This document shows, in pieces, positions 18,613-36,181 of a DNA stretch of 40,356 nt; position 1 is the first letter of the stretch; each line of letters starts with the position of its first letter. The notes below the pieces were generated by a model, which worked only from the letters and a program-made list of their open reading frames with translations, searched no databases and was not told the DNA's origin. The translations under genes were made by a program, and so were the position numbers. Origin of the DNA: Paludibacter sp. (GTDB taxonomy: Bacteria > Bacteroidota > Bacteroidia > Bacteroidales > Paludibacteraceae); NCBI GenBank assembly GCA_010365115.1, contig JAAFGX010000032.1:1-40356 (forward strand), given 5' to 3'.

Positions 18613-19206
18613 ATGAAACAGAAAACAGATTTTTCTATTCTCGACCGTGCCATTGCCACAGTGGAGGGATTTGAAGGCGCGTACAAAATCCTTCAACAAC
18701 AAGTTGCCCTGCGTGGACAAAGTAAAAGCATTTTACACAACTATTCCCGTCAGATTAGCCTTGTATCGCTGCATTTCAATCGTTTGCCCGAGTTGATTAC
18801 CGAGCAGGAACTCAACGAGTATCTTGCAGGTTTGGCTATTTCGGCTCGCTCTCCTTCTCGCAGCGCTTTTAAACACGCCGTGTATGGTTTGCGCTACTAT
18901 TACCGCACTTTTGGTTTTTCCAATCGAGCGGTTAAGTTACCCTCCATTAAGAAGGATGCAAAACTGCCCGTTATCCTGAACCGCTCCGAACTTCGTGCTT
19001 TATTTGCAGCTCCTACCTTGCTTAAACACCGCGTTGTGCTAACGCTCATCTATTCAGCCGGATTGCGATCGCAAGAGCTTATCAACCTGAAAATTGCAGA
19101 CATTGATTTTGAGCGTAAAACCATTCATATTCGTCGCTCCAAGTATAACAAAGACCGCATTGTTCCGCTTTCGGATAATATGGCCATTGGTTTGCATAAA
19201 TATTGA
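18613..19206 (+). pseudogene. Tyrosine recombinase/integrase, C-terminal third missing
   Basis: 197 aa. A SAM-like core-binding domain (~5-105) is followed by the start of the catalytic domain: 'LIYSAGLRSQEL' with catalytic Arg at R152 and a beta-strand Lys region 'RRSKYNKDRIVPLS'. The protein stops at 'GLHKY', before the HxxR box and the tyrosine, so it cannot perform strand exchange. Full-length XerC/D-type proteins have ~290-320 aa. The stop is TGA immediately after the truncation. The AT-rich leader of the next gene follows directly, suggesting a deletion junction near 19200. Confidence 0.8.
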
Positions 19207-24352: not shown

Positions 24353-24983
24353 ACTATTGAAAAAATAACTAAACTTACTCCAAAATTAATATACTAAATT
24401 GATTCTACAGAATAGTCCGGTTAATTAATTAGTGGCTAAGACAAATGATTGAGCACATTCATAGCTTTTGTATTCCAAGTGCAGGGTGCCTCATTTTTCC
24501 GGAATTATAACCGATAAGAATTCCTAAGCATTTTAGTTTAAATATGCCGCGACCAAAACAAAAAATTGAAAGAAAACAAAATTAATTTAGTTGCGGTGCA
24601 AAATCGCTACAAAACTTTACAGCAAAGGCTTTGATGCCTTCCGCAACCGCAACACCGCAACCAAGGGGTATTTTCTGAAATCGAAATGTAAAAATCTATT
24701 TCAGTTGAGAAATCCAAATAAAATCAGATCATAAGAAAGTTCGGCAGAAAGCGGTCAGGTTTCACCTGAAAGTTCATTACGAGCAGCTCCGCAGGCAATC
24801 CCCAGCCGCCAAAAATCCCCGCCCCTCATTCCTCTGGGCTTGCACGGTCTTTTTGTCGGCTTCCGCACTATCAACCCTTCTGTTGTTTTTTTCTGTCACA
24901 CTTTTTGCAAAAAGGCAAAAAAGCCGTTTGCACTCCAACCGCCACCACCGTGCTACACTTGTGCCAGAAAAAAACAACTCAAA
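24353..24983. other. Gene-free stretch before the repeat region
   Basis: About 630 bases with no ORF supported by start, composition or motif. Base composition rises in GC from ~24590 on. A small TCAGGT/ACCTGA hairpin occurs near 24757. It may be decayed mobile DNA; nothing specific can be named. Confidence 0.4.
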
Positions 24984-25072
24984 GCTATTATACATAACAT
25001 GAAGTTATGTGCGTTCCTTTGGCGAATAGCCAAATCAATAAGGAAGCCCATAACCTAATTATGTATAATAGC
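24984..25072. repeat. 89-bp multi-stem palindrome (attC-like fold)
   Basis: The outer arms are perfect 14-mers: GCTATTATACATAA (24984-24997) and TTATGTATAATAGC (25059-25072). Inside, GTTATG (25004-25009) pairs with CATAAC (25049-25054), TTCCTT (25014-25019) with AAGGAA (25040-25045), and TGGC with GCCA around GAATA. A single strand would fold into one long rod with bulges, as integron attC sites do. No integron core site could be confirmed. Confidence 0.55.
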
Positions 25073-25109
25073 CGCACAAAATCAACGCTTTGCCCCGCTG
25101 CGCTGCCCG

Positions 25110-25183
25110 AAGAATAAGCCCCTGAAGGGAGAGTGGTAAGAATAAAACACCTAATCGGTGAGTTGTTTAGGCGTACCGCCAAT
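25110..25183. repeat. Structured spacer S, copy S0
   Basis: First copy of a ~75-80-base motif found beside the U repeats. It holds hairpin CACC-TAATC-GGTG (25148-25160) and hairpin GGCG-TAC-CGCC (25170-25180). See S1 and S3 for the compensatory changes. Confidence 0.6.
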
Positions 25184-25198
25184 AAAATTCCCTCAAAT

Positions 25199-25588
25199 AA
25201 TTCCCCACCACCCTTTCAGTTGTGCAGTAAAAAATAAATATGTCGAGTTTTATTTCCATGTGCTTGCGGTAGGTTCATTCACTTCTCTCATTACTTTCCA
25301 GGAACGGTTTTCGTACCTCAAACCGATTCCTTTCACTACATTCGTTTGTTTCATTTCACCCACCTCAGCACCGCACAGCATAAGTGGCTCAGTCACTCCA
25401 TGCCACAAATCCATGCAGGCATTTCATTTCGTTTAGCGGCTTAATCCGCGCTTAAATCCATACTTTCAGCCAGCTAACCTCCATTTCATTCCCCAAACGC
25501 ACTGTGACATTCCGATACCTCAACTACCCATGCCCTTTTCCAACGCTTACCAATGGTATATTTTCTTTCACTGCGACGAGTTAGCCCC
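25199..25588 (-). repeat. U repeat, copy U1 (390 bp, most diverged)
   Basis: Read on + it starts ATTCCCCACCACCC and ends GCGACGAGTTAGCCCC, the same borders as U2-U5. The middle is longer than in the others and differs, with an extra ~90 bases. The orientation is nominal: minus-strand reading gives protein-like pieces, but they are not conserved in frame. Confidence 0.6.
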
Positions 25589-25665
25589 GAAAGAGCTAGG
25601 CGCCTAAAGGCAGAGCGGAATATTTATTACGCCTAATCGGCGAGTTTCTAGGCTATCGCCAAAAT
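25589..25665. repeat. Structured spacer S, copy S1
   Basis: Hairpin CGCC-TAATC-GGCG (25630-25642) replaces the CACC/GGTG pair of S0 and S3, with the TAATC loop unchanged. A second stem, GGC-TATC-GCC, follows at 25651-25660. Both arms changing together points to selection for pairing. Confidence 0.6.
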
Positions 25666-25680
25666 AAGAAAACCACAAAA

Positions 25681-25976
25681 TACCCCACCACCCATTAATG
25701 TTGCAGAAAATAAAAATAGTCCGAGTTTATTTATACATGTGCTTGTGGTATATGATTTCCATTATGCTTCATTGCGTTCCGGGTTTCTTGTTCGTTCCTC
25801 ACAACAAAACCCAACTCTCCATTTTCGCTATCATTCCAATCATACACCTCAGCACCGCACAGCTTAGGTAAAAACTCATTTCCATTTTGCTGCGCTCCAT
25901 TCATTCCGTTTTTACCCAAGCCCTTTCCAACGCTATTCCAGTGGTATATTTTTATTTCCTGCGGCGAGTCTACCCC
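25681..25976 (-). repeat. U repeat, copy U2 (296 bp)
   Basis: Borders as in U1. The minus strand carries an open stretch with 'GKGLGKNGMN' and 'LCGAEVYDWND'. Comparable peptides appear in U3 and U4, but single-base indels put the neighbouring parts in different frames, so the conservation is of nucleotides, not of a protein. Confidence 0.65.
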
Positions 25977-26055
25977 GTAATAGCTTAGCGCATAAAGTTA
26001 GGTCAAATATTATAAAACCTTATCGATTAGTTGATTAATGGCGCACAAAACATAA
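25977..26055. repeat. Structured spacer S, diverged copy S2
   Basis: Aligns with S1 over AGCTTAGCGCATAAAG and the TTATCGATTAG part, but the CACC/GGTG stem is lost. It continues into a ~110-base tail that is repeated after U5. Confidence 0.5.
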
Positions 26056-26104
26056 GAATAATGTCCAGCAAGCCAATTTCGCTTACTGTATTTAGTAACA
26101 GTTG

Positions 26105-26145
26105 GTAACAATAGTAACACCTATTACCACTGTTACTATTGTTAC
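26105..26145. repeat. GTAACA dyad, copy 1
   Basis: Perfect 15-bp inverted repeat, GTAACAATAGTAACA (26105-26119) and its complement at 26131-26145, with an 11-base spacer. It lies at the right edge of the U2/S2 block, and a related dyad sits at the matching place after U5. Confidence 0.7.
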
Positions 26146-26255
26146 TATTTTCAATAATGTTACCATAGATTGAACTTAGCCCATATAGCTTTTTATTTTC
26201 AACATTCATTGATAAGTTCTTAAGTTTTCAATTTGCTGTATTTGACTTTAAGAAT

Positions 26256-26286
26256 GTTCAATTATTTTGATTTTTTTGTAACTTTG
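26256..26286 (+). promoter_or_regulatory. Bacteroidota-type promoter of the AlbA_2 gene
   Basis: TAACTTTG (26279-26286) fits the -7 consensus TAnnTTTG exactly. The -33 position 19 bases upstream reads GTTC, a weak match to TTTG. The start codon at 26332 leaves a leader of about 40 bases. Confidence 0.6.
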
Positions 26287-26331
26287 CAGGATTAATAATA
26301 AATCGTAGAATTTCTCTCTCAAAGTTAACAT

Positions 26332-27720
26332 ATGCCCGAACAACAAAATATAGAATACAAACAAAGCTGGCACGATGGATTTTCGTGCAAGGTGAGTGCA
26401 AACCAAACTTGTTTGAGTTTGCCGAACCGAAGCCGAAAATCATGCGAAGCGTAATACCTAAAATGGGTATGTGGTTTTGCTAATGCTCAGGGCGGTCGGA
26501 TTTATATCGGAAAAGACGATGTTGGAAATATTGTTGGTCTGGAAGATTACAAAAGATTAATGGACGAGATACCCAACAAAATTAAAAACAATATGGGCAT
26601 TACTGCCGAAGTTAATCTTCTGCAGGATGCTGAAAACAATTATATTGAAATAATCGTCCAGCCATATTCAGTGCCAATTTCGTTGCGAGGAAGATATTAT
26701 TACCGTAGTGGCAGTGTAAAACAAGAATTAACGGGAGCTGCACTTAATGAGTTTTTGCTCAAACGTACCGGTCAAACATGGGACGATGTTATTGAACCTC
26801 GAGCTACATTTGATGATATTGACGAAAAAACCATAAAAATTTTCTTGCGAAAAGCAGAGGAAGCTGGTCGTTTACCCGAAATTGATGGTCTTTCCACTTC
26901 CGAACTTCTTGAAAAACTCCGCTTGGTGAAAAATGGACAACTCAAACGTGCTGCTATTGTTTTGTTTGGTAAAGATCCAGGCGCATTTTATCCAAACACT
27001 TTTGTGAAAATTGGCAAATTTGAAAATGATGATTTTACAATTCGTTTTCAGGAATTAGAAGAAGGTAATCTTATTCAGATAGTAGACAAGGTTCTTCGTA
27101 CCATCGACCATAAATTTTTGATAAGGAATATTTCTTTTGAAGGAATGAATCGAGTTGAAACGCTTGAATATCCGATTACTGCGCTACGAGAAATGCTTCT
27201 AAACGCTCTTGTTCATCGGAACTATATGGGTGCACCAACTCAAATCCGTGTTTATGACAACAAACTTTCCGTTTGGAATCACGGCATACTGCCCGAAGGA
27301 ATAACGCTTGACAAACTGACTAAATCGCATTCTTCATATCCACGAAACCCAATTCTTGCCGAAGCCTGTTTTCGTGGCGGCTATATCGATTCGTGGGGTA
27401 GTGGCATTATGAAAATTGTCGATTCTTGCAAAGCAGCAGGTTTGCCAACACCCATTATGGAAGAAGATGGTGGCGGTTTTATTGTACGACTTTTCAAAGA
27501 TATTTATTCAGAAGAAGAATTGAAAGGCAAAGATCTTAATGATAGACAAATATTAGCATTGCAGTTTTTTAAATCACAAAAGGAAATAACGACTTCGGAA
27601 TATATGAAAAAGTTTCAAATTGCTGATCGGACTGCACGTAGAGATTTGGTTGAATTGGTTGAAAAGGAGCTGCTTATATCAGAAGGGGAAAATAAATCTG
27701 CTCGGTATGCCTATAAGTAA
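26332..27720 (+). pseudogene. AlbA_2/Schlafen-type ATP-binding regulator, interrupted near the start
   Basis: The original gene starts at 26332 (MPEQQNIEYKQSWHD) and continues after a 75-bp insertion as 'YLKWVCGFANAQGGRIYIGKDD', the AlbA_2 (AAA_4) fold. The insertion ends in an in-frame TAA at 26452-26454. The rest is intact: AlbA_2 domain, ATPase-like C-terminal domain of COG2865 ('REMLLNALVHRNY', 'SWGSGIMKI') and a winged helix (~385-460 of the full protein, 'TSEYMKKFQIADRTARRDL'). Translation could restart at ATG 26560, giving 386 aa without the first part of AlbA_2. Such proteins are thought to act as DNA-binding regulators. It has its own promoter and no operon partner. Confidence 0.8.
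26378..26452. mobile_element. 75-bp palindromic insertion in the AlbA_2 gene
   Basis: Removing these bases restores 'SWHDEYLKWVCGFANAQGG' as one frame. The insert has terminal arms GATTTTCG/CGAAAATC, inner GCAAAC/GTTTGC and central CAAAC-TT-GTTTG, so it folds as one hairpin; ~11 bases lie outside the right arm. The length is a multiple of three and the frame stays open through the insert until the last codon, which becomes TAA at the junction. It is a small non-autonomous element of REP or MITE type. No second copy was seen in this window. Confidence 0.75.
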
Positions 27721-27764
27721 ATGTCCGATAGATGTCCGATATGTCTGATAAATGTCCGATTAAG
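27721..27764 (+). repeat. Four tandem ATGTCCGAT units after the AlbA_2 stop
   Basis: Units begin at 27721, 27732, 27741 and 27752, spaced 9-11 bases; the third has ATGTCTGAT. They begin at the first base after the stop codon. Confidence 0.65.
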
Positions 27765-27881
27765 ATAGATGATATTGGGTAAATGTTCCTCTTTCTCTCA
27801 ATTCACAATATCCTTAAAATCTGCTCTCAATCCCATAAGAGCTGCAAGCAATCATTAAAAAATTACCAAAAGACCACAATT

Positions 27882-28178
27882 ATTCCCCACCACCCATTTT
27901 TGTTGCAGAAAATAAAACATATCGAGTTGATTTTTCAATGTGCTTGTGGTATATGCTTTCCATTATCGCTGCATTTCGTTCCAGGATCTTCGCTCGTTCC
28001 TCGCTTCGTAACCCTTACACTTCATTTTGCTAACACTACAAGCATACACTTCAGCACCGCTCGGCATAAGTAAAATACTCATTCCCATTCCGCAGGCTAC
28101 ATTCATTCCGTTTTTACCCAAGCCTTTTTCCAACGCTATCCCAGTGGTATATTTTATTTTCTGCGACGAGTTTACCCC
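27882..28178 (-). repeat. U repeat, copy U3 (297 bp)
   Basis: Very close to U4 over its whole length. Ends GCGACGAGTTTACCCC at 28178 and is followed directly by spacer S3. Confidence 0.7.
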
Positions 28179-28255
28179 TTAAAACCGAAACGACTAAAGG
28201 CAGAGTTGTAAGATTTTTACACCTAATCGGTGCGTTTTTAGCCGTATCGGCAATT
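28179..28255. repeat. Structured spacer S, copy S3
   Basis: Hairpin CACC-TAATC-GGTG (28220-28232) and hairpin GCCG-TAT-CGGC (28241-28251). S0 has GGCG/CGCC at the second stem, so both arms changed together. An upstream TGTAA/TTACA stem (28207-28221) shares two bases with the first hairpin, so the two cannot both form fully. Confidence 0.65.
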
Positions 28256-28270
28256 CGAGAGTAATGCCCC

Positions 28271-28341
28271 GAAAACCACTTGTAATTTTCATTGGAGTTT
28301 AAAATTATTTCGGGTATAAATGAAAATCACAAAAGGTTTTC
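28271..28341. repeat. 71-bp imperfect palindrome between S3 and U4
   Basis: Arms 28271-28293 and 28319-28341 match as inverted repeats at 20 of 23 positions, with a 25-base centre. CCCC (28267-28270) and GGGG (28349-28352) extend the symmetry. MITE-like in shape, with no ORF. Confidence 0.6.
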
Positions 28342-28416
28342 CAAATATGGGGACAGATGTCAAGCTCCTTACAGCAGCTTATTAATTGTTTAGCACTTCC
28401 TGCAATATCCTCAATA

Positions 28417-28714
28417 ATTCCCCACCACCCATTATTGTTGCAGAAAATAAATCATATCGAGTTGATTTTTCAATGTGCTTGCGGTAAATGATTTCCATTA
28501 ACGCTACATTTCGTTTCAGGATCTTCGCTCGTTCCTCGCTTCGTAACCCTTACACTCCATTATCGCTATCATTACAATCACAAACCTCAGCGCCGCATGG
28601 CTTAAGTAAAATACTCATTTCCATTCCGCAAGCTACATTCATTCCGTTTTTACCCAAGCCCTTTTCCAACGCTATTCCAGTGGTATATTTTATTTTCTGC
28701 GACGAGTTTACCCC
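28417..28714 (-). repeat. U repeat, copy U4 (298 bp)
   Basis: Nearly collinear with U3. No S spacer follows; U5 starts 15 bases later. Confidence 0.7.
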
Positions 28715-28728
28715 AAATATAACCTCAG

Positions 28729-29015
28729 ATTCCCCACCACCCATTTTTGTTGCATTCACTTCAGGCAATAGTGTTTATTTACACGTGTTTGCAGTATATG
28801 CGTTCCATTATCGCGCCATTTCGTTCCAGGTTCTACGTTCGTTCCTCACTTCGACACCTGATACTCCATTTTGCTAACATTTCAAGCATACACTTCAGCA
28901 CCGCAAGGCACAAGTATTCCTTTTCTCACTCCATATATTCCGTTCCCACAGTCATACCCATGCCATTTCCCATACTTTCCAACGGCTGCCTTTGTTCCTG
29001 CGGCGTGTTCACCCC
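28729..29015 (-). repeat. U repeat, copy U5 (287 bp)
   Basis: Same borders, with a more diverged middle. U5 and the sequence after it resemble U2 and the sequence after it, so a ~480-bp block occurs on each side of the AlbA_2 gene. Confidence 0.65.
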
Positions 29016-29187
29016 AAAAGAACTTAGCGCATAAAGTCAGATGCAAAAAAAACAATAACACATTGTTGATTAGTTATTTAATGATACAATAAACATAAGA
29101 ATAGTGTTCAGAAAGCCACTCTTGTTTACTGTATTTAGTAACAAATGGTAACAGTAGTAACACCAATTACTAATGTTACTAATGTTC
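29016..29187. repeat. Diverged spacer S5 and second GTAACA dyad
   Basis: It starts AACTTAGCGCATAAAG like S2 and continues through the same tail to GTAACAGTAGTAACA (29148-29162), with a partial complement from 29174. It is the direct-repeat partner of 25977-26145. Confidence 0.6.
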
Positions 29188-29190
29188 ATA

Positions 29191-29504
29191 TTCAAGTCTT
29201 TGATTCTAATATCTAATATAAGAAGCTAAATACTATTTCCGCAAAAAAAAATGAATATACAAAGATAGCCGTTCCGCTTACCTTCTGTAAAGGTCGAGCA
29301 CTTCGTGTTTTTGTCACAATCTCCACACCTCGTTGTACTTCGGGTAGTATTCTGACAAAAAACCTTGACAGCCGCCGCTGCACTGGCTTTTGAGAAGTAT
29401 ATCCTTTTTTTTTCTTCTTTTCTTTTTTTCTTTCTCTTTTCTGTGGGTAAAAATTATTTGCAGGGGTAGTCCCTCATATTATTCACCCTTTAATCGTCAA
29501 TATC
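29191..29504. other. Gene-free gap with a pyrimidine tract
   Basis: A C/T-only run of about 45 bases spans ~29404-29449. No ORF, and no TAnnTTTG box before the next gene. Confidence 0.4.
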
Positions 29505-29924
29505 ATGTGTACCTTTATTTTGAAGTCTTACAGTCAGAAATCAGAAATTGAAAAACCTCATTTCTTTATCTTAAACAAAGGAAATAACAGCGGAAAGCCG
29601 CTTTTAGCTCCATGTCCTAATTGTTTCGTAATTCAATGTAATTCCGAACCAGAAAAAGAACAAATCTACTGGCTATCTTATAGCCTTTGGCAGTCAAAAG
29701 CATTTTATCCATATTTGCGCGGCTCGGTTATTCCCTTTGTAGTGCTTCGGGATATAAAATCCTGCCTTTTGGTTGGTTTGAATAAGGTGGATAAAAATCC
29801 TGAACAATTTGAAAAAGCGGTTGCAGCCCTCCAGAGTTTAGAAGCAATGGAAAAACAATACAAACAAAATTTACTTTTAATTGCCAATGCCAAGCGAATG
29901 CTTTTTTATAAGTTCATTTCGTAA
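29505..29924 (+). CDS. Small Bacteroidota protein of unknown function
   Basis: 139 aa, no signal peptide or membrane segment. The first half has beta-strand character with a 'LAPCPNCFVI' stretch; the last ~45 residues are a charged, probably helical tail ('EKAVAALQSLEAMEKQYKQ'). It may belong to the DUF6943 family, which is a recollection and not a search result. The gene stands alone, is followed by a long hairpin and faces the minus-strand lysis-type block. No function can be proposed. Confidence 0.6.
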   Translation: MCTFILKSYSQKSEIEKPHFFILNKGNNSGKPLLAPCPNCFVIQCNSEPEKEQIYWLSYSLWQSKAFYPYLRGSVIPFVVLRDIKSCLLVGLNKVDKNPEQFEKAVAALQSLEAMEKQYKQNLLLIANAKRMLFYKFIS

Positions 29925-29953
29925 ATCGGCATTCTTATTTAGTTAGTATTGGC

Positions 29954-30016
29954 GGTAAAACGAGAATAACTTTTTTCGGGCGTTTTAATAGCCCCAAAAG
30001 TTATTTCCCGTTTTCC
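29954..30016 (+). terminator. Long inverted repeat after the 139-aa gene
   Basis: Inner arms AATAACTTTT/AAAAGTTATT plus GGGC/GCCC are perfect, and the outer GG-AAAACG/CGTTTT-CC extends the rod to ~25 positions with a few mismatches. It starts 30 bases after the stop codon. Confidence 0.65.
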
Positions 30017-30130
30017 GTGTGATGGGTGCAAATTATAAGCTAGGTGAGTTGTAGTTAAGCCGTACATAAGTCATACTTAAAACCTATATAAGTCCACACG
30101 TTGCCTGTTTAAGCTTTCACTTTTGAGTAC

Positions 30131-30163
30131 AAAAAAAGGCGTTCCGTTTGCTGGAACACCTTT
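30131..30163 (-). terminator. Rho-independent terminator of the 268-aa gene
   Basis: Read on the minus strand: AAGG-x-GTTCC stem (arms 30153-30162 and 30136-30145, one mismatch), 7-base loop, then a run of seven T. It lies 23 bases after the stop codon. Confidence 0.8.
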
Positions 30164-30185
30164 CTCATTTCTTAGGTTTTAATGA

Positions 30186-30992
30186 TTAGAAAGTAGTTTG
30201 AATTTTCAACGCATGACCTGCATTGAGTAAATAATACTCATTGCCGGCTTTTTGATAGAACTCTATTCCAATTGAGTTCATTACTGTTACATCATCATTG
30301 ATTTCAGGTTCACCTGGAAGAGCACTGGTAATTACTGTCGGAACTGCTATGGCAGTTGTCAAATCCAAGTAGCCCGAAAATTCCACGTTGGACATTTCGT
30401 TAAGAGCTTGTTGGATTGGCTCATAAACTCCTGTTGTTGCATTGAAGGCAAAATCAGAAATCACTGAAACTGCATTAATCAAACGGAAATGAGTTGCACC
30501 TGCAGGAGCAATAACTGACTTTGCAGGATTAAAAGCTGCCACCGTTAATGTCGAACTATTACTGTTCTCGTTACTTGTCAACTCAAAGGGTTCGATAAAC
30601 GAACTTTCAAAACTGGCATTGCGGTTAAAATTCAAACCAACCAAATATTTGCTTTGGGTTGAAACCAAAATTGCACGATAACCACGAGCTTCAGACAAAT
30701 CTTCCAAATTGATTTTCTTCATAATCGCAGTTAATCGACCTGTTAGTTGGGCATCGCTCATTTGCTTCATTAGCATATTGAGTCCTACACGAATGGAACG
30801 AGCTGCATGTGCACATCCGCCAAACTCGTTCATGTTTTCACGAGTTCTGACAAAGCCCGGGTCATTTTTGATTTGTTCGCCAGTTGCACCGCCTTTTAAT
30901 CCGGCAAAATTGCCTGTCATACCTTTAATCTTGAAATGGCGAATTTCGCCGATAGTACCTTTGTACTTTACATGTCCTAATTGTCTGGCCAT
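30186..30992 (-). CDS. 268-aa cytoplasmic protein of unknown function, co-regulated with the lysis-type genes
   Basis: It has no signal peptide, TM segment or lipobox. The N-terminal ~75 residues are basic and Gly-rich ('VKYKGTIG', 'FKIKGMTG', 'GGATGEQI', 'RTRENMNEFGG'); residues ~75-130 look helical; the rest is beta-rich with 'GATHFRLINAVSV' and 'IGIEFYQKAGNEYYLLN'. I recall similar proteins in many Bacteroidota, always unnamed, but could not search. The gene has its own terminator and a promoter that copies the promoter of the holin-M15-spanin operon 128 bases upstream of it. A cytoplasmic cargo or structural protein released by lysis fits this context; that is inference. Confidence 0.8.
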   Translation of the reverse strand: MARQLGHVKYKGTIGEIRHFKIKGMTGNFAGLKGGATGEQIKNDPGFVRTRENMNEFGGCAHAARSIRVGLNMLMKQMSDAQLTGRLTAIMKKINLEDLSEARGYRAILVSTQSKYLVGLNFNRNASFESSFIEPFELTSNENSNSSTLTVAAFNPAKSVIAPAGATHFRLINAVSVISDFAFNATTGVYEPIQQALNEMSNVEFSGYLDLTTAIAVPTVITSALPGEPEINDDVTVMNSIGIEFYQKAGNEYYLLNAGHALKIQTTF

Positions 30993-31033
30993 AATTGTAA
31001 GTTTTTAAAATGAATAATTGAATTTTATCGCTG

Positions 31034-31100
31034 TAAAAATAAGGAGCAATCATCTGTGTTATAAATGTATAAATAATGCTAATCAATGCTTTTTGATGCT
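31034..31100 (-). promoter_or_regulatory. Promoter P1 of the 268-aa gene, with three phased activator-like repeats
   Basis: On the minus strand: GCAT repeats at 31095-31100, 31085-31090 and 31075-31080, exactly 10 bp apart, then 10 bases, TTAT (31061-31064), 19 bases and TATTTTTA (31034-31041). The last two fit the Bacteroidota -33/-7 spacing with weak boxes, as expected for an activated promoter. The same layout with the same distances occurs at P2 (32435-32501). Confidence 0.75.
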
Positions 31101-31120
31101 ATTGAATAAATTCATTCTGT

Positions 31121-31750
31121 CTATTTGATTAGTAAAGCAATCGTTTCTATCAATATGATAATTCCCGCAGCCTTGATTTTTACTCCGGTCCAAAAATCCT
31201 TTTTCTTTTGTTGAGTTTTGTAAGCCGTTATAATAGAATCTTTGGAGGCTATCAGATTTTGTTTGCTGTCGATTACCTCTGTTTGAATATTCACTTTATC
31301 TTCCAATACTTTGACCTTACAACTGTAGTTGTCATTCTCTGAATCGAGACTTTCAATAATACTGTCCTTCATTACAATCTCAACTTCTTGACCACAAACA
31401 AGATCCTCACAAGTGTTAACACTTTTTTCTCGTTCATAAATAGCCTGTAATGTATCGTTGATAATGTGCTGATTTCTTGCATCTACTTTAAGTGCTGCGG
31501 TATGAGCTTTTTCCTTTTCAAGTTTTAAATTGATTAGTTTAATAATACTGTCTTTCTGTTGAAGTAGAATACTCGCTTTTACAGTGTTTAAACTGTCTAT
31601 TTTGGATTTTTCTCTATCACATTGATCAATGTTTGTCGGCTCTGATTTTGGCTGATTGCCGCAGCTAATTTGAAATAGAGATAAAAAGCAAAAAGTGATT
31701 GCAATAATCACCAGTGCATACTTTCTGAGGAATTCAATTTTTGTTTTCAT
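31121..31750 (-). CDS. Unimolecular-spanin-like lipoprotein with C-terminal membrane anchor
   Basis: 209 aa. The N-terminus is a lipoprotein leader with lipobox 'QISC' (Cys30). Residues ~45-180 are charged and coiled-coil-like ('KLEKEKAHTAALK', 'SKQNLIASKDSIITAYKTQ'), and residues ~190-208 are a TM helix ending in Lys. Outer-membrane lipid anchor, periplasmic rod and inner-membrane TM is the layout of phage u-spanins such as T1 gp11, which fuse inner and outer membranes in the last step of lysis. Its ATG overlaps the stop of the M15 gene (ATGA), so the two are translationally coupled. Another periplasm-spanning role is possible. Confidence 0.7.
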   Translation of the reverse strand: MKTKIEFLRKYALVIIAITFCFLSLFQISCGNQPKSEPTNIDQCDREKSKIDSLNTVKASILLQQKDSIIKLINLKLEKEKAHTAALKVDARNQHIINDTLQAIYEREKSVNTCEDLVCGQEVEIVMKDSIIESLDSENDNYSCKVKVLEDKVNIQTEVIDSKQNLIASKDSIITAYKTQQKKKDFWTGVKIKAAGIIILIETIALLIK

Positions 31751-32193
31751 GATTTTTGTTTTTGTTTGAATGATACTTGTTTTTTGTTTTTAAACTTGAG
31801 TATTTGTTTTCTATTTCCTTTCGCCTTGTAGCTTACATGCACCCAGTCGGGTTGTAGGTCGTTTCCTTCTTCCCAAATCAATTGGTCAAAGTCAAAGTTA
31901 TCTCGGATTAGATAGAAGATTCTGGTATTATCAGCACAGTCCAAATCAGCAGCTTCGCCTTTTGTGTGTTGGCTAATTGGTTTTGTTGCTCCACCAATGG
32001 CTTTGTTTATAGCTAATGTTCTAAATCCTGAGTTAACACAGATAGGAAAGCCGTACATTTCCCGAACCGGATCCAGTAGATTTTGCACAAGAATTTTCAG
32101 CTTTTGAGTTGCTATAGTTCCCGGGGTGTTGTCTAAATTCTCATGGGTTACTGTCAATTCTTCCAATGAAAAGTATTTTCCGAGTTGGCTCAT
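31747..32193 (-). CDS. M15-family peptidoglycan peptidase (endolysin-like)
   Basis: 148 aa, a single Peptidase_M15_3 domain. The zinc ligands are visible: H76 and D83 in 'SQHTKGEAAD' and H119 in 'DWVHVSY'; 'SGFRT' (55-59) and 'QLIWEE' (E108/E109) complete the active site. There is no signal peptide, so it needs a holin-type pore to reach the wall. Such enzymes cut peptide cross-links of peptidoglycan (endopeptidase or carboxypeptidase). The start overlaps the stop of the holin-like gene and its own stop overlaps the spanin-like start, both as ATGA. ChiX of the Serratia type 10 secretion cluster belongs, as I recall, to the same broad peptidase class. Confidence 0.88.
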   Translation of the reverse strand: MSQLGKYFSLEELTVTHENLDNTPGTIATQKLKILVQNLLDPVREMYGFPICVNSGFRTLAINKAIGGATKPISQHTKGEAADLDCADNTRIFYLIRDNFDFDQLIWEEGNDLQPDWVHVSYKAKGNRKQILKFKNKKQVSFKQKQKS

Positions 32194-32417
32194 GATTCTT
32201 TCTTTTTAAAAAATTGTAGAATAAAAGCACACACGCCGCCAGCTATGGCTATGTACTTCAGATAATTTGTCGGAATGGCATCTTTGAACTGTTCTGGGAG
32301 TGAGATGTAATACATTGGCAATGCTGCCAATGCACTGGAAAGAAGCTGAAAGAAGCGGGCAAAAGCAGGAGTATCAGCTTTCCACCAGCTAGGCAGTTTA
32401 AATAATAGTTTTTTCAT
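32190..32417 (-). CDS. Small holin-like membrane protein
   Basis: 75 aa from ATG 32417. The frame is open upstream to a TTG at 32450, but that would lie inside the promoter. Two hydrophobic segments, ~22-40 ('FFQLLSSALAALPMYYISL') and ~54-70 ('IAIAGGVCAFILQFF'), are joined by a short polar loop, with a basic tail 'KKKES'. Size, two-TM hairpin, charged end and position before an M15 lysin and a spanin-like gene fit a class II holin. Holins cannot be proven from sequence. First gene of the operon, driven by P2. Confidence 0.7.
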   Translation of the reverse strand: MKKLLFKLPSWWKADTPAFARFFQLLSSALAALPMYYISLPEQFKDAIPTNYLKYIAIAGGVCAFILQFFKKKES

Positions 32418-32434
32418 ACAGTTGATTTTTCTTG

Positions 32435-32501
32435 TAAAAATACAAGTCAATCACCTGTGCAATAAATATATGAATAATGCTAAACAATGCGTTTCAATGC
32501 T
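32435..32501 (-). promoter_or_regulatory. Promoter P2 of the holin-M15-spanin operon
   Basis: Minus strand: GCAT repeats at 32496-32501, 32486-32491 and 32476-32481 (10-bp phase), 10 bases, TTAT (32462-32465), 19 bases, TATTTTTA (32435-32442). Between P1 and P2 the whole ~70-base region is about three-quarters identical, while the sequences outside are not. The leader here is short, roughly 10 bases to ATG 32417. Confidence 0.75.
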
Positions 32502-32930
32502 ATAAAACAATCTTGCTTAAGAAACTGGAAGTACTATCCAGTTCACTTATTGAATAAGTCAAATTTGCGTGTCATTACTATTTAAAAAGGTGGGGAAACC
32601 AAGTGAGATGAAGAATGAGGTGCTGACTTATTTTAGACCATGCTGAACGAGTTTTCTTGCTATTTGATATAAACGTATCTGCAATTTCTAATGAAGTCAA
32701 ACAAGGGCTTTTTGATTTTTTAGTGAAAACATGTCCTGAAATTCAATTACAATAATATATCTTTGTATTGTTTTGTAAATAAATACCTTATTTTGTGTAA
32801 TCTTTGTGTAATGTGAGCAAATAAAAAAGGTCTACACTTTTAGCATAAACCTTTTATTTACAATGTAATATATAAATAAATATAAAAATCAAACAAATCT
32901 CCCTTTAGGGGTTAGGGGTTTATTTATCTT
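32502..32930 (+). promoter_or_regulatory. Leader region of the second carbohydrate operon
   Basis: No ORF. TATCTTTG (32758-32765) matches the -7 consensus TAnnTTTG, with a poor -33 box (CCTG 19 bases upstream). A 7-bp AAAAGGT/ACCTTTT hairpin lies between it and the gene (about 32824-32855). If this is the promoter, the leader is ~160 bases long. Confidence 0.45.
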
Positions 32931-34102: not shown

Positions 34103-36181
34103 ATGAGAAAAACACTTTTTATTTGTTCTTTGTTGTCAATTGCATTTTTATTAAATGCTCAAAGTTTTTTTAACACTGAGAAGATGGTTGAAACGGGTGT
34201 TTATTATTACCCCGAAGCCTGGAATCCAAACCAATGGGACAGAGATTTCAAAAAAATGGCTGAAATGGGTTTTGAATTTACACACATGGCTGAATTTGCG
34301 TGGGCTCAAATGGAACCAACAGAGGGAAATTATGATTTCGCCTGGCTTGATAAAGCAGTAAAATTGGCTGCTAAAAACAACCTGAAAGTAATTATGTGTA
34401 CACCAAGTGCCACGCCACCAGTCTGGTTGGTGCGTAAGTATCCCGAAGTTTTGGTTCAAAAACCAGATGGTCAATTAGCCGATCATGGCACACGGGCTCA
34501 TTGCTCGTGGTCGAGTCCAAAATACCAGGAATTACTTACAAAATTAGTAACAGCTATGGCAAAACACTACGGAAACGACAAACGTATTTGGGGTTGGCAA
34601 CTCGATAATGAGCCTTCGCATTATGGTACAAATGATTATGGAACTGCCGTACAAACAAATTTCAGAAAATGGTTGCAAATAAAATATAAAACCATTGAGA
34701 ATTTGAATAATGCTTGGGGAACTGCTTTTTGGTCGGGGATTTATACTGATTTTAATCAAATAAATATTCCAAATGCTCCACAACTCATTGCTGGAGCTGC
34801 AAGTCAAATTTCATTAGTGGATTATAAACGATTTAGTGCTGATGAATGTGCTGCATTCTTAACGATGCAAAAAAACACGTTACGTGAAAGCATTTCGAAA
34901 ACGCAGTTTGTTACAACCAATTTTATGAGCACTCATACTAATGTAGATCCTTGGCGTAGTAAAGATTTAGATTTCATTACTTACACCACATACCCAGTAG
35001 GTGGATATTCAAAAGGTGTTGGTGATCAAGGATTCAGAATGGGCGATTATTGGCTGATTTCTTGGTCGAATGATTTTTTTCGCCCATTAAAAGGAATGAC
35101 TGGAGTTATGGAGCTTCAACCGGGGCAAGTGAACTGGGGTTCGTACAATCCGCTGCCGTATCCAGGAGTTATCAGAGCTTGGCTGTGGAATGCTTTTGCC
35201 GGCGATTTAGATTTTATTTGTTCGTATCGTTTCCGTCAACCACTATTTGGTAGTGAGCAATTTCATTATGGAATGGTGGGCACAGATGGCATAACACCAT
35301 TGTTTGGTGGTTTGGAATACAGTCAGTTTATGAAAGAAATTCGTGAATTGCGGAAATTGTATAAACCCAATGCGCCTATGCCAACAGAATATGCGTCACG
35401 AAAAACGGCTGTACTTTATAATGTTGATAATGTTTGGGAAACACAAGTACAGAAACAAACAGATCTGTGGAACGAAATCAATCACATTACAAAGTATTAT
35501 TCCGCATTGAAAACACTTTGCATTCCGGTGGATATTGTGGGTGAAGATCGTGATTTATCCAGTTATCCAGTTGTGGTTGCACCTGCCTATCAAATGGTTG
35601 ACAAAGAGCTGGTTGCCAAATGGAAAAAATATGTTGAAAATGGCGGACAGTTGGTTTTAAGTTGCCGTACAGGATTGAAAGACCGTAATGGCCATTTCCC
35701 GGAAGCACCTTGGGCAAATGCTATTACCGAGTTGATTGGAGCAAAAATAAGCATGTTCGATTTGCTCAACAAGGAAACAATTGCTAATGTGAATTTTGAA
35801 GGTAATAAATATAGTTGGCACTCTTGGGGTGATATCCTTGAGCCTTATGCAGGCACAGAAATCTGGGCAACTTTTGCCGATCAGTTTTATGCTGGAAAAG
35901 CAACTGTCATACATCGTAAACTTGGAAAAGGCACTGTTACTTACATTGGAACTGATACCGATAATGGAAAACTCGAAAAAGAAGTGTTGAAAAAAGTGTA
36001 TAATTCTGCCAAAATCACCACCAATGAACAGCCTGAAGGTGTGATGGTTAACTGGCGTGATGGATTTTGGGTGGCTATTAATTATTCATCTGTAAAAGTA
36101 AACATCAATATTCCTTCAAATGCCAACATCATTTTTGGTTCAAAAGAACTGGATATTGCAGGTGTGGCGGTTTGGCAATAA
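34103..36181 (+). CDS. GH42 beta-galactosidase
   Basis: 692 aa with a signal peptide ending 'LLNAQ' (residue 20). The TIM barrel (~28-400) opens with 'YYYPEAWNPNQWDRDFKKM'. Acid/base E170 is in 'QLDNEPSHYG' and nucleophile E337 in 'GVMELQPGQ'. A beta-galactosidase trimerisation domain (~410-625) and a short C-terminal domain follow, as in known GH42 enzymes. The signal peptide is noteworthy, since many GH42 enzymes are cytoplasmic; here hydrolysis is likely periplasmic. It removes beta-linked galactose, or in some members alpha-L-arabinose. Confidence 0.9.
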   Translation: MRKTLFICSLLSIAFLLNAQSFFNTEKMVETGVYYYPEAWNPNQWDRDFKKMAEMGFEFTHMAEFAWAQMEPTEGNYDFAWLDKAVKLAAKNNLKVIMCTPSATPPVWLVRKYPEVLVQKPDGQLADHGTRAHCSWSSPKYQELLTKLVTAMAKHYGNDKRIWGWQLDNEPSHYGTNDYGTAVQTNFRKWLQIKYKTIENLNNAWGTAFWSGIYTDFNQINIPNAPQLIAGAASQISLVDYKRFSADECAAFLTMQKNTLRESISKTQFVTTNFMSTHTNVDPWRSKDLDFITYTTYPVGGYSKGVGDQGFRMGDYWLISWSNDFFRPLKGMTGVMELQPGQVNWGSYNPLPYPGVIRAWLWNAFAGDLDFICSYRFRQPLFGSEQFHYGMVGTDGITPLFGGLEYSQFMKEIRELRKLYKPNAPMPTEYASRKTAVLYNVDNVWETQVQKQTDLWNEINHITKYYSALKTLCIPVDIVGEDRDLSSYPVVVAPAYQMVDKELVAKWKKYVENGGQLVLSCRTGLKDRNGHFPEAPWANAITELIGAKISMFDLLNKETIANVNFEGNKYSWHSWGDILEPYAGTEIWATFADQFYAGKATVIHRKLGKGTVTYIGTDTDNGKLEKEVLKKVYNSAKITTNEQPEGVMVNWRDGFWVAINYSSVKVNINIPSNANIIFGSKELDIAGVAVWQ

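Follow-up and report, generated by a model that had tools for sequence, protein, structure and literature searches.

The window analyzed here, a 40,356-bp stretch of Paludibacter sp. DNA (contig JAAFGX010000032.1), carries a gene for a 268-aa protein and, upstream of it on the same strand, a predicted holin-endolysin-spanin operon. Each is preceded by three short direct repeats and promoter-like boxes, termed P1 (268-aa gene) and P2 (lysis operon). The features considered are as follows.

24526..32886 (approximate), no strand assigned: element conserved with loci L052-L056 (blastn)
29505..29924, plus strand: DUF6943 gene (PF22105, 5.6e-49), convergent with the 268-aa gene
30186..30992, minus strand: 268-aa protein, no Pfam or NCBIfam family at E ≤ 1
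31034..31041, minus strand: P1 -7-type box TATTTTTA, at a fixed offset from the boxes
31061..31065, minus strand: P1 -33 region, TTTAT
31075..31099, minus strand: P1 triple box, GCATC-N5-GCATT-N5-GCATT, 10-bp period
31121..31750, minus strand: predicted spanin, 209 aa (hydropathy; no family match)
31747..32193, minus strand: M15 peptidase, predicted endolysin (PF08291, 1.3e-16; PHROG endolysin phrog_894, 5e-30)
32190..32411, minus strand: holin-like protein, 73 aa from its ATG (PHROG holin phrog_1356)
32435..32442, minus strand: P2 -7-type box TATTTTTA
32462..32466, minus strand: P2 -33 region, TTTAT
32476..32500, minus strand: P2 triple box, GCATT-N5-GCATT-N5-GCATT, recovered independently by a profile (R1, see below) built without P2
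32792..32812, no strand assigned: tandem TTTGTGTAAT repeats close to where the conserved element ends on the P2 side

Holin and endolysin genes lie in one operon, as in phage lysis cassettes, and the frames overlap by a few bases. The listed holin ORF is an 86-aa TTG form (phrog_1356, E = 1.3e-7; DUF7940 just below the cutoff), the start of which would fall upstream of the P2 -7-type box. The predicted spanin has an N-terminal hydrophobic stretch with a lipobox-like Cys, a hydrophilic middle, and a C-terminal hydrophobic stretch.

The 268-aa protein gave a weak PHROG match (phrog_14147, E = 0.002). A search of a large protein collection gave 950 homologues (E ≤ 0.001); a paralogue was matched by 6638 of 7999 scored candidates. 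Its AlphaFold model (mean pLDDT, 80) comprises 50 N-terminal residues that are strongly conserved yet modeled at low confidence, a helical part, and a C-terminal beta-sandwich with weak matches. An arm of this kind, conserved yet disordered in the monomer model, would be in keeping with a protein that assembles or binds nucleic acid. Membership in the DUF6266 family was considered and rejected, as no Pfam hit was obtained at E ≤ 1 and the hhalign probability was 0.2, against three DUF6266 proteins only.

The initial annotation had described three GCATT repeats in both P1 and P2. This holds for P2 (32500-32496, 32490-32486, and 32480-32476), but the first box of P1 (31099-31095) reads GCATC, followed by GCATT at 31089-31085 and 31079-31075 (all on the minus strand). 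The 10-bp period and the equal distances to the -7-type box that it reported were confirmed, with internal offsets in P1 and P2 exactly identical. Likewise, the outer DNA is unrelated, as claimed for the flanks, but the similarity is not confined to the boxes: P1 and P2 share 78% identity across approximately 85 bp, spacers included. In the 40-kb window, the pattern GCATT-N5-GCATT-N5-GCATT was matched three times with up to two mismatches, compared with 0.23 matches expected. The third match (35484-35508, plus strand, two mismatches) lies within a coding frame and is not a P1/P2-type site.

Conservation of the motif upstream of 268-aa homologues

Of 237 homologue loci confirmed in named genomes, the 80 best were fetched, together with one viral contig. 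The upstream set comprised 81 regions including the window (L108 has no upstream DNA), of which 51 were nonredundant at 75% identity. The boxes upstream of the homologue start codons take the form of [GA]C[AG]TT-like words that recur every 10 bp. The initial annotation had proposed comparing these regions for repeats, and 46 of the 51 nonredundant loci, the window included, indeed have them, each outscoring all 100 of its own shuffles (leave-one-out, dinucleotide-type shuffles); the other five were without the motif in the same test. Across the 51 regions, a spacing of 10 bp was found for 63 pairs of box words and one of 20 bp for 32 pairs; letter shuffles gave 1.0 for each spacing. In a control region farther upstream, there were 2 pairs at 10 bp, 0 at 20 bp, and no more than 7 at any spacing.

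A predicted core promoter lies at a fixed distance from the boxes. Of the 46 motif-bearing regions (one, L123, was shifted 10 bp by hand in register), 35 have TAnnTTTR at offset 59 relative to the motif, and 7 more matches were found at 58 and 60; at other offsets, the mean was 0.11 and the maximum was 3. Forms of the -7-type box include TATTTTTA and TAAATTTA, and its distance from the start codon was 34 to 57 bp in the sequences listed. Housekeeping-sigma promoters of Bacteroidota have a -33 box with TTG about 19 to 21 bp upstream. Here, TTG was found at offset 36 in 28 and at offset 37 in 3 of the 46 motif-bearing regions, and the window has TTTAT. The known Bacteroides -7 sequence is TAnnTTTG (PMC4747536, in excerpt), with which the TAnnTTTR box agrees. 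In several loci (L051, L064, L065, and L071), the 268-aa promoter has a palindromic -7 box, GTAAATTTAC, which could serve the 268-aa gene and a divergent nuclease gene alike.

In a 14-bit scan of the fetched loci, the motif was found before the 268-aa gene and, in the window, L052-L057, and the own-genome copy C25, before the lysis operon. The only other matches were a weaker one in L072 and overlapping or opposite-strand matches at the main site. The motif was absent at distant paralogues on C124, C56, and C101, and the wider protein family can thus exist without it. A second subfamily of approximately 250 aa was noted at L045, L046, and L048 (C124, C56, and C85), and the GCATT promoter was absent at its genes on C124 and C56. 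Neighbors of this subfamily include a DUF5675 gene (Pfam, on C124), small predicted membrane proteins, and, on C124 and C85, DUF6943-like genes. The C124 protein shares >90% identity with Flavobacterium proteins. Proteins of the 251-aa and 268-aa types are encoded back to back, at most approximately 1.5 kb apart, on G164:C26, G166:C47, and G159:C55 (L188 and L180).

At 61 of 85 loci, a divergent gene of approximately 163 aa starts from the same upstream region, and the two copies tested match staphylococcal nuclease (PF00565). The repeats could in principle be a by-product of the conserved 5' coding sequence of this gene, as GCATT is the complement of AATGC around the nuclease start codon; in 37 of the 61 loci, the called start occupies either of two offsets in the motif, and in 46 it lies anywhere within the 40 bp of the motif. 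This explanation is highly improbable in view of the loci in which start and motif part company. The motif is kept in 10 loci (not all independent) with the first nuclease ATG before it and in 17 of 23 nuclease-less loci scored, the window included, and P2 precedes a holin gene with no nuclease nearby. As the motif is present regardless of the start or presence of the nuclease gene, the constraint acts on DNA. The phased-repeat pattern is a DNA-level signal found phylum wide.

The boxes keep both their period and their distance from the -7 box, as would be needed by a multimeric activator touching RNA polymerase, and three boxes on one helical face at a fixed -7 distance suit a tandemly bound activator. 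We propose that P1 and P2 represent the same predicted promoter in two copies, through which a single activator probably turns on the 268-aa gene jointly with the predicted holin-endolysin-spanin genes. The putative activator would bind the three boxes in tandem, on one face of the DNA, and contact RNA polymerase at the -33/-7 promoter. It would be supplied in trans, since short and decayed copies of the element keep the promoter without an obvious regulator gene alongside. The genes so controlled would constitute a late, release, or transfer module of a mobile, satellite-like island.

Alternatively, the boxes could be operators from which a repressor silences the lysis and 268-aa genes until it is removed. 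Lysis genes need tight silence, and because the motif abuts or overlaps the divergent nuclease start, one protein could hold down both sides; moreover, many loci combine a TTG -33 box with a good -7 box, so that the core promoter may work alone. We nevertheless regard repression as unlikely, as every box lies upstream of -33 and none over the core, repression does not need a fixed offset to -7, and the poor -33 sequence (TTTAT) of the window and its near relatives favors activation.

Distribution of the predicted promoter and of the elements that carry it

The initial annotation expected a regulon of at least two transcription units, and the genome of origin indeed holds a small predicted regulon with three sites. 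A search of this 4.79-Mb genome (a bin with 7.2% estimated contamination) with P1 returned P2 and C25:59194-59284 (E = 3e-12 and 6e-12), with the next match at 0.003. At C25, the copy is followed by a holin with 89% identity to that of the window and then by a truncated M15 gene, and tRNA-Pro adjoins. Profile R1, built from 46 promoter sequences with P2 and C25 left out, likewise ranked P1, P2, and C25 first (E = 9e-11, 5e-9, and 2e-6; next, 0.007) and gave no further sites above noise in this genome that would mark a resident helper.

Among 150 genomes of the family, R1 matches at E ≤ 0.01, most of them weak, were obtained in 49. Apart from the genome of origin, six genomes of this draw had sites at E ≤ 1e-5, and in five of the six these lay before 268-aa or holin genes; the exception, G069, has its site at a contig end, with neither gene in the 222 bp left. 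One genome of the same genus had six such sites, arranged as three pairs approximately 1.38 kb apart, and the one pair read (L146) has holin, M15, spanin, and 268-aa genes ordered as in the window. Single sites preceded 268-aa genes in G148 and G034 and broken holin genes in G130 and G079. The draw of 395 phylum genomes yielded two, besides the genome of origin, with an R1 site at E ≤ 1e-5, in each case before a 268-aa gene. Stricter filters were applied in the 150- and 395-genome scans, and sites may therefore be missed in these counts. Viral contigs gave five matches to the motif pattern, none with the query genes, and the approximately 160 bp read by eye at each showed no matching -7 layout.

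The lysis operon replaces the nuclease gene in eight loci (the window, L052-L057, and L059), seven of which have their own promoter copy above 14 bits before it; L059 has no P2 above this threshold. Among the loci read, a P2-type site before lysis genes was confined to the window, L052-L057, and the decayed or truncated copies C25, G130, and G079. No lysis genes are shown for the Paludibacter-labeled loci L058, L060-L062, and L073, and the lysis type is thus one branch rather than the whole genus. The window holds a short variant of the element (approximately 8 kb, 24.5 to 32.9 kb), with 73 to 76% DNA identity over 3.2 kb to L052-L055 from Paludibacter bins. The DUF6943 cluster is present in 48 of 85 loci.

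An array of approximately 300-bp noncoding repeats with up to 91% mutual identity occupies positions 25115-29192 of the window. It has a strand-asymmetric composition and no Rfam match and is kept in Paludibacter loci and partly in other Bacteroidota loci. Between its repeat blocks lies a Schlafen/AlbA-type gene with HATPase_c_4 and HTH domains (26266-27768), which, compared with the C56 copy (L046), a single open frame, is interrupted close to its start.

Of 81 loci, 36 have a tRNA or tmRNA gene no more than 2 kb upstream of the 268-aa gene, on the nuclease side (nine kinds of tRNA and one tmRNA); in 22 of these 36, it is 658 to 684 bp from the 268-aa start. None was found within 2 kb downstream in the 61 loci of sufficient length. 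Thirteen 20-kb regions were extracted, mostly downstream of the 268-aa gene. Beyond this gene, 137 of 155 ORFs of at least 100 aa point toward it; in L179 and L188, the first large ORF has the opposite orientation. A sample of 80 cargo genes from seven regions of relatives included parts of type I restriction-modification systems, two Piwi and two Fic proteins, three DUF3987 primases, two HTH_17 (PF12728) regulators, and five tyrosine integrases (PF00589). The primase Pfam hits were in L176, L178, and L179, and the same cluster occurs in 5 of the 13 regions. Cargo in L176-L182 is rich in defense genes (Piwi proteins, type I restriction systems, and matches to mad2/mad5 models).

Attachment-type repeats were readable in two regions. 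The region of Pedobacter cryophilus repeats 47 bp of the tRNA-Val 3' end just past the integrase gene and has a 23-bp repeat at both ends; in a Flavobacterium region, a 15-bp copy of the tRNA-Phe end lies past the integrase gene. These two regions are built like integrated islands: the nuclease/268-aa module occupies the tRNA end, and the integrase lies at the opposite end. A tRNA-end repeat of at least 14 bp was absent in the other four of six tRNA-flanked regions taken to 20 kb and in loci taken to approximately 5 kb, and we infer from position and gene content that the remaining regions are integrated islands as well. In L176, additional copies of the tRNA-Val 3' end lie past the integrase gene (at approximately 18.5 to 19.6 kb), which suggests repeated integration at a single tRNA. 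Overall, the regions of the relatives look like satellite-type islands.

The element of the window itself holds no tRNA, integrase, or primase gene, so that its status as an island is deduced from its relatives; no AlpA-type regulator was seen in it either. A truncated tyrosine recombinase (197 aa, 18613-19206), approximately 11 kb from the 268-aa gene, is apparently unrelated to the element. In L052 and L054, tRNA-Pro adjoins, and no att repeat of at least 14 bp was found in the approximately 5 kb covered, though the element ends within or close to that stretch. The tandem TTTGTGTAAT repeats, of which L052, L053, and L055 have similar versions, may be integrase arm sites.

Phased direct repeats occur in iterons and integrase arms, and the module sits at the tRNA end of integrated regions. 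On these grounds, the boxes might serve in recombination, replication, or packaging instead of forming part of a promoter. This is quite improbable, since their offset to the -7 box is fixed and the -7 box lies 34 to 57 bp before the start codon in the listed sequences, P2 repeats the box set 1.4 kb away before another operon, and separate arm-like repeats lie nearer the tRNA end. Given that the pattern recurs before the 268-aa genes of relatives across the phylum, often beside a tRNA, the boxes are likely the landing site of an activator for release genes of mobile islands. This observation reaches beyond the initial annotation, to what is predicted to be a phylum-wide promoter of a mobile module.

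A further possibility, which we consider doubtful, is that the activator is an ordinary host regulator and that the elements are resident chromosomal lysis or defense loci instead of satellites or transferable islands. Short copies without integrase, primase, or att repeat fit this view, as does the failure to find a helper regulon in the genome of origin and the viral contigs. Several observations speak against it: placement at nine kinds of tRNA and a tmRNA, integrase with tRNA-end repeats in two regions, near-identical upstream DNA across organisms labeled as different families, and several homologues per genome. As no helper regulon was found, dependence of these islands on a helper is offered as a hypothesis.

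Comparison with known systems

The most far-reaching interpretation is a speculative one that we hold to be rather improbable, namely, an undescribed, phylum-wide family of phage satellites with anti-phage cargo, a tRNA-side late module, a three-box promoter, a helper-supplied activator, and, in the window type, promoter duplication. If true, the late module would consist of the 268-aa protein, as a structural or packaging protein, with the nuclease, or of the satellite's own holin-endolysin-spanin set, and the window type would have duplicated the promoter so that particle protein and host lysis start together. One recognizable promoter marks widespread Bacteroidota islands with defense genes, some with lysis genes. 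It offers a handle, as bait for the activator or as a reporter of induction, and raises the questions of the trigger, the satellite nature of the islands, and the role of the 268-aa protein.

Sites of OmpR/PhoB-type regulators, which are winged-helix proteins, and of lambda CII are direct repeats approximately one helical turn apart by the -35 box, read by multimers; those of CII are two TTGC units straddling -35. The motif resembles the OmpR/PhoB-like mode in having direct repeats 10 to 11 bp apart directly upstream of -35/-33. In contrast to both, it has three boxes with a GCRTT unit, placed upstream of a Bacteroidota -33/-7 promoter.

The late genes of P4 and P2 answer to delta and Ogr, and the model proposed here is similar in that one activator would serve matching late promoters of element and helper (PMC8628076, in the sections available). 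The site differs, being three direct repeats; no Ogr or delta gene is known from the islands, and no helper was found in the genome of origin or the viral contigs. The P4 genes delta, psu, and sid were not among the 25 of 79 Pfam families listed for the 80 cargo genes. SGI1 genes answer to AcaCD of the helper, and the likeness lies in island promoters served in trans by an activator from a helper; particular to SGI1 are a conjugative plasmid as the helper and an FlhDC-like activator (PMC7826253, from an extract).

PICMI satellites of Vibrionaceae, which a helper phage mobilizes, are described in part of PMC10803314 with markers including a PF00589 integrase, an AlpA-type regulator (PF05930/PF12728), and a DUF3987 primase. 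Three of four PICMI marker genes (integrase, AlpA-type HTH, and DUF3987 primase) were found in the islands of the relatives, and the likeness extends to PF12728 as the regulator family and to phage defense cargo (same extract of PMC10803314). According to this account, PICMIs lie next to fis, whereas the readable attachment sites here (L176 and L179) are tRNA ends; on account of attachment at tRNA and not at fis, the islands are not filed as PICMIs. They differ further in their extra terminal module, either nuclease/268-aa/DUF6943 or lysis genes, under a phased-repeat promoter, and in their Bacteroidota hosts.
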